The translations under genes were made by a program, and so were the position numbers. This document shows positions 1 through 10,618 of a stretch of 64,000 bases of DNA, one piece after another (the stretch's first letter is position 1; every line of letters starts with the position of its first letter). The stretch lies in assembly GCF_014837035.1 (NCBI RefSeq), contig NZ_JACSPS010000001.1:56374-120373 (forward strand), given 5' to 3'. The stretch comes from Kaistella pullorum (GTDB lineage: Bacteria > Bacteroidota > Bacteroidia > Flavobacteriales > Weeksellaceae). A model generated the notes under the pieces. The model worked only from the letters and a program-made list of their open reading frames with translations, ran no database searches and was not told where the DNA came from.

Positions 1-112
1 TTTTCGAAAATTCATTGTGCGAATGAAATCTACTGATTAAATCGCGCGTGAATCCCACGTAGGTGCGACCATATTTCCGGCTGTATAAAATGTAGACTAC
101 AAACTCATCCAT
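1..112 (-). CDS. GIY-YIG nuclease family protein, copy A (partial at left edge)
   Basis: The first 37 codons of a small GIY-YIG domain protein are visible and the frame stays open to the window edge. The visible part differs from copy B at 203-454 by one residue only (Arg for Thr at position 12). It holds the GIY-YIG core, with YILYS near residue 7 and YVGFT near residue 18, followed by the usual Arg and His-Asn of the helix. This fold cuts DNA in homing enzymes, UvrC and related small proteins; the target here is unknown. The start lies 6 bases past the hairpin at 121-144. Confidence 0.75.
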   Translation of the reverse strand, partial: MDEFVVYILYSRKYGRTYVGFTRDLISRFHSHNEFSK

Positions 113-117
113 ATATC

Positions 118-144
118 AAAAAAGCCCAACAAATGTTGGGCTTT
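118..144 (-). terminator. Hairpin terminator, copy of the one at 460-486
   Basis: An 11-bp perfect stem (121-131 with 134-144) around a two-base loop, followed on the minus strand by six T residues. It is identical to the hairpin after the intact tRNA-Met. Here it follows the tRNA remnant, so it now stands in front of GIY-YIG copy A with no intact tRNA transcript to end. Confidence 0.75.
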
Positions 145-150
145 CAAGTG

Positions 151-204
151 TAGCGAAGACGGGAATTGAGCCCTGTCCGCCGCGGCGGATATGAATGCTG
201 CGCT
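151..204 (-). pseudogene. Remnant of the 3' part of tRNA-Met
   Basis: The 54 bases match the intact tRNA-Met at 493-543 from the D-stem/anticodon region to the 3' end. The acceptor 3' strand and T-loop side are unchanged, and the anticodon region is nearly unchanged (one mismatch beside CAT). The variable-loop region between them is replaced by a G+C-rich palindrome, which adds three bases. The 5' part, with the D arm and acceptor 5' strand, is missing; at 205 the sequence passes straight into the 3' end of GIY-YIG copy B, whose stop codon lies at the junction. It cannot fold as a working tRNA. Confidence 0.8.
176..189. repeat. Perfect 14-bp palindrome inside the tRNA remnant
   Basis: The sequence TCCGCCGCGGCGGA equals its own reverse complement and is far richer in G+C than its surroundings. 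It replaces the variable-loop part of the decayed tRNA-Met and is absent from the intact copy. It may be a recognition or cleavage site, or a dispersed palindromic repeat; which one cannot be told from one copy. Confidence 0.8.
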
Positions 205-454
205 AATATTTCACATTTTGTTTTATCAAATCCCTCCCAACACCGGACTTCAGCCAAATTTCTCGGGATATTGCTGCGCCTTTTGTATTGAAAAATTCGA
301 CATGAATAACTTCCCAAGGCCTGTATTTTATGGTAAAACCTCTTTTCGAAAATTCATTGTGCGAATGAAATCTACTGATTAAATCGCGCGTGAATCCCAC
401 GTAGGTGCGACCATATTTCGTGCTGTATAAAATATAAACTACAAACTCATCCAT
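203..454 (-). CDS. GIY-YIG nuclease family protein, copy B
   Basis: An 83-residue single-domain GIY-YIG protein of the short kind often annotated as UvrC-like or UPF0213-like endonuclease. The motif residues are visible: VYILYS at 6-11, YVGFT at 18-22, Arg23 and Arg28, HN at 32-33, and a conserved C-terminal REIWLKS stretch holding the expected catalytic Glu. It starts 6 bases after the hairpin that ends the tRNA-Met transcript and has no clear promoter of its own, so read-through from the tRNA promoter is the likely source of its mRNA. Its stop codon is formed at the junction with the tRNA remnant. The biological target is unknown; association with tRNA-Met suggests a site-specific mobile gene. 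Confidence 0.8.
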   Translation of the reverse strand: MDEFVVYILYSTKYGRTYVGFTRDLISRFHSHNEFSKRGFTIKYRPWEVIHVEFFNTKGAAISREIWLKSGVGRDLIKQNVKY

Positions 455-459
455 ATATC

Positions 460-486
460 AAAAAAGCCCAACAAATGTTGGGCTTT
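460..486 (-). terminator. Terminator of tRNA-Met
   Basis: A perfect 11-bp stem (463-473 with 476-486) followed on the minus strand by six T residues, 6 bases beyond the tRNA 3' end. The GIY-YIG start codon follows directly after the T run, so any expression from the tRNA promoter needs read-through. Confidence 0.85.
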
Positions 487-492
487 AAAGTG

Positions 493-566
493 TAGCGAAG
501 ACGGGAATTGAACCCGTGACCTCAGGGTTATGAATCCTGCGCTCTAACCAACTGAGCTACCTCGCC
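493..566 (-). tRNA. tRNA-Met (anticodon CAT), elongator type
   Basis: A complete 74-base tRNA on the minus strand. The 7-bp acceptor stem (with two G-U pairs), D arm, anticodon arm with CAT, a five-base variable loop and the T arm with GGTTCAATTCC can all be read. CCA is not fully encoded. The first acceptor pair is G-U rather than the C-A mismatch typical of bacterial initiators, and the anticodon stem lacks the three G-C pairs of an initiator, so elongator Met is more likely. A tRNA-Ile2 with modified CAU cannot be excluded by sequence alone. A well-matched promoter lies at 636-666. Confidence 0.93.
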
Positions 567-9987: not shown

Positions 9988-10208
9988 GTGTTTATTTATT
10001 TTTTTGAGATTTCAAATATAAGTTTTTAATATGCAAGCCTCCATAGGAAAGAACATTTCAAAACCAGATTTAAAACAAATTTTAATTTAAATTTGCACTC
10101 GCAAAGACGGATGCCTTGGTAAATAATGCACGGACCCAGCGCAACGATGCGGGAAAACCGTTTACACGAAATGAAAATCAATATTGTCTTAAAAATTATT
10201 GATTAATA

Positions 10209-10283: not shown

Positions 10284-10442
10284 ATGAGCAAAAGAACCTT
10301 CCAACCATCCGAAAGAAAAAGAAGAAACAAACACGGTTTCAGAGAGAGAATGTCGACGCCTAACGGAAGAAGAGTTCTGGCAGCGAGAAGAGCAAAAGGC
10401 AGAAAGAGTTTAAGCATTAGCGGAGTTCGCGCTAAGAGATAA
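10284..10442 (+). CDS. rpmH: 50S ribosomal protein L34
   Basis: A 52-residue, very basic protein beginning [20 protein letters not shown], followed by [20 protein letters not shown], the complete bL34 signature. A strong promoter lies at 10209-10239 and a hairpin with a T run follows at 10462-10498, so it is probably transcribed alone. The bacterial neighbours rnpA and dnaA are not next to it here. Confidence 0.97.
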
Positions 10443-10461
10443 CCTCAGAAATTATCATATA

Positions 10462-10498
10462 AAAACATGCTTGAAAAGTGATTTTTCAGGCATTTTTT
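10462..10498 (+). terminator. Terminator of rpmH
   Basis: A 10-bp stem with one G-T pair (10468-10477 with 10483-10492) followed by six T residues, about 25 bases after the rpmH stop codon. Confidence 0.75.
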
Positions 10499-10618
10499 GT
10501 TGTTAAAATTTGCCAATTAGGCTTTCTTCAGGAAAGTTTTATTTATTTTTGAATGTAATTCATTAATCATTACAATGCCCGGTTCTACGGGTTTTTACTT
10601 AAATAATAAAGAAGCATT

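Follow-up and report, generated by a model that had tools for sequence, protein, structure and literature searches.

Tandem GIY-YIG nuclease genes and truncated tRNA copies behind a tRNA-Met gene of Kaistella pullorum: a probable minimal selfish element anchored at tRNA genes of Bacteroidota

Kaistella pullorum belongs to the family Weeksellaceae, order Flavobacteriales, within the phylum Bacteroidota. Here we describe a tandem array at the left edge of a 64,000-nucleotide stretch of its genome (the window; assembly GCF_014837035.1, contig NZ_JACSPS010000001.1, positions 56,374 to 120,373 of the forward strand). Read along the minus strand, the array consists of an intact tRNA-Met gene, a terminator, a GIY-YIG nuclease gene, a truncated tRNA-Met, a second terminator and the opening part of another nuclease gene (Table 1), the nuclease ATG lying about 10 bases or less after the terminator hairpin. 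The element is a lone GIY-YIG gene with a 5'-truncated copy of the host tRNA and a terminator, placed directly behind the intact tRNA.

Table 1. Features of the array at the left edge of the window
Feature	Position	Strand	Evidence or remark
Intact tRNA-Met, anticodon CAT, anchor gene	492..566	-	ARAGORN; Rfam tRNA 69.5 bits
Terminator-like hairpin AAAGCCCAACATTTGTTGGGCTTT of tRNA-Met, present in each unit	463..486	-	Inverted repeats I1-I3
GIY-YIG nuclease gene, complete copy, 83 aa	203..454	-	Pfam PF01541, E=2.4e-14
5'-truncated tRNA-Met remnant (pseudo-tRNA, tRNA positions 24-75)	150..204	-	blastn against intact tRNA, 80%
Perfect palindrome TCCGCCGCGGCGGA replacing the 3' side of the remnant's anticodon arm	176..189	.	
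Terminator hairpin, second copy	121..144	-	Inverted repeats
Second GIY-YIG copy, 5' part (37 codons)	1..112	-	Runs over the 100-N gap to L004 9764

The unit repeats with a period of 342 bp, as given by direct repeats at 10001-10173 and 10343-10515 of locus L004 (97% identity; L004 position 10001 is window base 1), and the GIY-YIG reading frame is its sole gene. A scaffold gap of 100 N lies immediately left of window base 1, and beyond it follow the rest of the second nuclease gene, a third tRNA-Met fragment and a terminator, with 97% identity to the unit in the window over 226 bp. Because the edges of the gap join seamlessly in frame, the locus has no fewer than two complete nuclease units; the gap itself may contain zero or more additional 342-bp units. 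With repeats of 226 and 173 bp, both at 97%, the array is not a product of chance. TRF did not detect the array at this locus, to which it is blind because the N gap and the imperfect copies interrupt it, and at the Rfam gathering level the intact tRNA alone was matched, the tRNA remnants fitting no RNA family. The first-pass annotation of this DNA had described two units of about 340 bp, each with a nuclease gene, a hairpin and a copy of the tRNA-Met 3' part, and had noted that the unit runs on past the window, so that the array may be longer; both points are confirmed. The single visible residue difference that it had noted between the nuclease copies is a change from T to R, and copy 2 carries two further changes in the portion outside the window. 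Its description of the left tRNA as having lost its 5' half stands as regards the 5' truncation (positions 1-23 are missing) but not as regards a plain 3' part, since the anticodon arm holds a palindrome.

The protein belongs to the GIY-YIG superfamily (PF01541), with both the fold and the catalytic residues present. In the window nuclease Y7, Y18, G20, R28, H32 and E65 are all in place, and over 157 domains the catalytic residues, Y, Y, R, H and E among them, are 98-100% conserved. The median dN/dS was 0.15 over 63 pairs, which are largely array copies from few loci; these comparisons indicate an intact active site that is held by purifying selection. The AlphaFold model of the window protein (pLDDT 91.5) is a bare GIY-YIG domain, and no extra DNA-binding domain is seen in this model of the 83-aa protein, unlike in the Seg proteins and I-TevI. 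Its closest neighbours in both sequence and structure are UPF0213- and SLX1-like GIY-YIG proteins (nearest PDB relatives 1zg2, 1ywl, 7cq2 and 4xm5), and I-TevI is only a weak match. Kinship with the SegB family was gauged through the TIGR01453 and PHROG models: matches to TIGR01453 were marginal, the best having E 4e-4 and the first member scoring 19.5 bits where the cut-off is 56, as were those to PHROG homing endonucleases.

The same genome (G000) contains a second case, at G000:C21, where a GIY-YIG gene with a broken reading frame begins some 58 bp downstream of tRNA-Arg(tct); a tRNA-Arg 3' fragment and a terminator lie on the far side of the nuclease and a 5' tRNA-Arg fragment lies upstream of the intact tRNA. 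Across 36 genomes of the genus, genes of the subfamily are found 30-70 bp behind tRNA-Met, Arg(tct), Arg(tcg), Ala, Val, Asp, Asn and Ser(gga), and their arrays hold no more than four nuclease copies. The tRNA-Met site is filled in G000, G013 and G020, while most of the genus has empty tRNA-Met loci whose downstream flank matches the flank past the G000 array. The intact tRNA-Met itself is 99-100% identical among relatives, whether or not they bear the element. Related yet separate GIY-YIG paralogues, some 100 aa long, in the same genus were near a tRNA at none of 21 loci. In five genus members (L060, L061, L063, L066 and L067) unrelated DNA comes after the tRNA-Met and the usual flank is missing; in L066 the start of this DNA is a coding sequence similar to a Bacteroidota tyrosine integrase, and integrase islands thus also seem to use the same tRNA-Met. 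At two Asn-linked loci (L025 841-1180 and L089 2170-2220) the C-terminus of the nuclease is translated from the tRNA D-arm (..GVLAQLVRVP..), and database members of the nuclease family therefore bear tRNA-encoded tails.

For the phylum-wide survey a profile (A1) of 13 tRNA-linked proteins was searched against 296 Bacteroidota genomes at E<=1e-14, and 165 of these genomes carry the subfamily, with at most 16 copies in one genome. We annotated 109 loci chosen among the best-scoring hits, which means that weaker relatives may behave differently, and counted 101 non-redundant arrays, none of them at a contig edge. A same-strand tRNA or tmRNA lies upstream within 1200 bp at 82 of the 101 arrays, and within 100 bp at 68, the nuclease typically being 30-70 bp downstream of a same-strand tRNA. 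A further 11 arrays have a same-strand tRNA downstream only, several at 0-8 bp, and the other eight have overlapping tRNA genes or in-register tRNA fragments. An opposite-strand tRNA was found at none of the 101 arrays, either upstream or as the nearest downstream neighbour. By a rough estimate (about 50 tRNAs in 4 Mb), a same-strand tRNA would lie within 100-150 bp by chance in about 0.1% of cases. The anchors are of many anticodon types and include one tmRNA (L217), and what tmRNA and tRNAs have in common is the T-arm and acceptor end. In this tmRNA case (L217 836-1440) a Ser-group nuclease stands 15 bp behind the tmRNA, and on the far side is a tmRNA 3' fragment with an insert in its T-loop. 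Arrays hold 1 to 8 nuclease copies across Bacteroidota, and 37 of 110 contain at least two. One protein of the subfamily gave no match among 50,697 phage and 72,556 plasmid records, and a phage or plasmid vehicle is therefore not in evidence. The first-pass annotation had proposed that the element spreads by cutting tRNA genes, which is a hypothesis here. The core of its reading, a minimal element that is driven by a nuclease, is linked to tRNA genes and comprises an intact tRNA and a displaced remnant, is now strongly supported: same-strand tRNA genes or fragments accompany the nuclease at all 101 arrays, and the variation among relatives that it had looked for appears both in the empty sites of the genus and in the differing copy numbers elsewhere.

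The nuclease lineages follow the type of tRNA. In a tree of 136 proteins, with 111 rows labelled by tRNA isotype, 30 isotype changes were counted, against a mean of 77.5 and a minimum of 71 for shuffled labels; when shuffling was confined within the host family the minimum was 61. The tree has strong support on only 18 of its 130 inner branches, the proteins being 83 aa in length, and 16 of the 17 tRNA-Met-linked proteins form one group across five families. Specificity was retested with a Met-clade query in an independent collection of named genomes, which gave 78 loci in Flavobacterium, Algoriphagus, Aquimarina, Halpernia and others. Wherever an upstream tRNA was in reach it was tRNA-Met(cat), in 61 of 61 loci, and no other type; of the remainder, 7 lie at a contig edge and 10 have no detected tRNA. 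As judged from these sequences, the nuclease clades are specific to a tRNA isotype across families, and the clustering by isotype could in part stem from vertical inheritance of one locus. The complete chromosome of Flavobacterium covae holds three copies, which means that the arrays are not artefacts of draft assembly, and two genomes named F. pectinovorum have 2 copies and 1, respectively. A Flavobacteriia-type tRNA-Met element also occurs in a metagenome-assembled genome labelled Rhizobium (L258), which is probably a mislabelled or contaminated bin.

These distributions bear on the explanation that the gene is a passive passenger, that is, a small chromosomal GIY-YIG gene that came by chance to lie behind tRNAs and was duplicated through ordinary unequal crossing-over of repeated tRNA ends. 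Tandem duplication of tRNA regions is indeed common, and the 178-bp repeats of E. coli tyrTV have no nuclease gene; a passenger would nevertheless leave unaccounted for the many isotypes and the tmRNA among the anchors, the strict co-orientation, the patchy presence with empty sites, the isotype clades that cross families and the missing tRNA linkage of the sister paralogues. We consider this explanation, which the present evidence already strains, very unlikely.

An alignable remnant of the adjoining tRNA was found at 85 arrays, in two arrangements. In class I the order is intact tRNA, terminator, nuclease and a pseudo-tRNA without its 5' end; in class II (for example L189, L155, L224 and L202) a 5' tRNA part is followed by the nuclease and, after 0-8 bp, by the intact tRNA. 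In L017 (1265-2499, genome G014) the entire tRNA-Val gene is amplified along with the nuclease, the 471-bp unit, made up of a complete tRNA-Val(gac), the nuclease and a piece of tRNA-Val, recurring in near-identical repeats. Such amplification of complete tRNA-Val genes would suit a host or defence role, in which the nuclease or the amplified tRNA context shields translation from tRNA-targeting toxins or phages, as would the finding that amplification of tRNA-Tyr by SegB counters Septu, a tRNA-cleaving defence (PMC13096335). Most arrays amplify truncated pseudo-tRNAs only, which does not raise tRNA dosage, and the distribution is patchy; both count against such a role, and we hold it to be very improbable.

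The loops of the remnants hold inserts, 115 in 65 remnants, many of the short gaps among them being alignment noise. The commonest site, with 17 of the 115, is 17-18 nt from the 3' end, in the middle of the T-loop where C56 adjoins R57, and other inserts lie in the anticodon, D and variable loops. Forty of the 115 surpass 95% of their shuffles in folding, against an expectation of about 6. In the genus set perfect palindromes of the form TC...GA take the place of the anticodon arm of remnants, and these palindromes are also scattered elsewhere in genus genomes at the tips of other hairpins. The motif TCCGCCNNGGCGGA occurs 12 times in the genome of the window, against a chance expectation of 0 and a reversed-pattern control of 0. 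For the dispersed palindromes (TCCGCCGCGGCGGA, TCCCGA..TCGGGA) the reversed-pattern control gave 0 to 1 per genome (L125-L144); examples at a hairpin tip are a palindrome between gtcatcccga and gacgggatctc and one at the terminator tip in L025. Arrays with a 102-bp period, made of palindromes and tRNA-Met-like fragments with the nuclease gene absent, were seen in L128 (G000:C19, ~438.8-439.1 kb) and in L132 (G020), the latter with a complete tRNA-Met gene on either side; in G026 (L012) a nuclease lies downstream of a comparable tRNA pair. These nuclease-free arrays are possibly decayed ones.

On a different explanation the nuclease, being SLX1/UPF0213-like, would be structure-specific, acting on hairpins or cruciforms of tRNA genes and palindromes and spreading together with mobile palindromes at hairpin tips, tRNA genes serving as the richest source of hairpins. 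This would agree with the nearest solved relatives in sequence and fold, UPF0213 and the branched-DNA nuclease SLX1, with the well-folding inserts at the loop centres of pseudo-tRNAs and with the identical palindromes at the tips of unrelated hairpins. The isotype-specific clades, however, imply recognition of sequence beyond hairpin shape. RNA folding does not support the notion that every T-loop insert is a pair of mini-hairpins, as several do not fold into separate small hairpins under RNA energies, and a dependence of the palindromes on the tRNA-linked nuclease is weakened by G019, which has palindromes and no close tRNA-linked nuclease; both observations weigh against the structure-specific explanation, which we regard as unlikely. 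Its furthest form, a categorically new system in which a mini-nuclease structure-specific for tRNA-gene hairpins propagates tRNA-anchored arrays together with mobile hairpin-tip palindromes, and of which the enterobacterial rtT repeats would be a nuclease-free relic, seems unlikely to us.

Our preferred reading is that the unit is probably a minimal selfish element of homing-endonuclease type, chromosomal, anchored at tRNA genes and isotype-specific, for which we infer cleavage and homing. Anchoring at tRNA genes, tandem amplification and empty alleles are all observed, and the gene has the trait of a homing endonuclease gene in lying beside its presumed target and being missing from empty alleles. 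In element-free chromosomes the nuclease would break the tRNA gene or hairpins that this gene forms, and homologous repair from the element-bearing tRNA locus would then copy the unit in. As the tRNA is essential and is kept intact, the element would have, at little cost, a landing site that is universal and conserved. Tandem arrays would arise through recurrent breaks and through recombination between the duplicated tRNA ends, as with the tRNA-segB unit of SegB. The lack of a second domain for DNA binding, which in Seg proteins and I-TevI confers specificity for long sites, counts against this reading. Self-protection cannot rest on the tRNA sequence, because the flanking intact tRNA is the same as in element-free relatives; the loop-disrupting hairpins may prevent cutting of the pseudo-tRNA copies, which would otherwise lead to deletion of the unit through annealing of the repeats.

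If this is true, an undescribed class of minimal selfish elements is present in more than half of Bacteroidota genomes; these would be among the smallest selfish elements known, parasitising essential tRNA genes by means of isotype-specific nucleases, and would offer a rich natural collection of small, tRNA-gene-specific nucleases. They would account for tandem arrays of tRNA fragments and the assembly breaks that result, carry the tRNA-directed homing lifestyle of SegB over to bacterial chromosomes and suggest a testable origin for repeats of tRNA fragments, a puzzle of decades' standing of which E. coli rtT is an example. Searches of the open-access literature turned up no account of GIY-YIG genes anchored at tRNA genes in bacterial chromosomes, and a 2006 survey of the GIY-YIG superfamily does not mention them.

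Among known systems, UPF0213 and SLX1 share the catalytic residues and a fold of the same size. SLX1 acts in DNA repair together with SLX4. The ~100-aa paralogues in the genus differ from the element in having no link to tRNA. Integrase islands at tRNA 3' ends likewise use tRNA genes as landing sites and duplicate the tRNA 3' part, and the first-pass annotation had likened the unit to elements of this kind that restore the tRNA 3' end; the likeness fits poorly, as the element has neither recombinase nor cargo, is only ~340 bp in size and forms tandem arrays. Alike in layout are the rtT (rttR, tpr) repeats of E. coli tyrTV, tandem units behind a tRNA that carry its 3' end and a T-loop insert. 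At tyrV/rttR of E. coli K-12 MG1655 (L332) the last 19 nt of tRNA-Tyr recur every 178 bp, and the T-loop is broken by an insert folding into several small hairpins; unlike the element, this 178-bp unit has no nuclease gene and contains a small tpr ORF only. As the unit has no recombinase, phage SegB offers a better comparison than integrase elements. SegB of T4 and T6 is a free-standing GIY-YIG homing endonuclease (PMC13096335; PMC2988022); that of phage T6 cuts tRNA genes, the tandem amplification of the tRNA-segB segment requires its nuclease activity and homologous recombination, and SegB is enriched near tRNAs of many isotypes in phages (PMC13096335). When its cleavage motif, RAWTSGAAC, is reverse-complemented, it gives the consensus of the tRNA T-loop, GTTCSAWTY, which provides a lead. 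The element and SegB have in common a GIY-YIG gene among tRNA genes, tandem tRNA-nuclease units and many isotypes. They differ in that SegB resides in phage and the element, whose cleavage we infer, in the chromosome; in that the element encodes an 83-aa lone catalytic domain nearest to UPF0213/SLX1 and far under the cut-off of TIGR01453, the model for intron- and Seg-type endonucleases; and in that its unit includes pseudo-tRNA copies with hairpin-plugged loops and its clades are specific to single isotypes.
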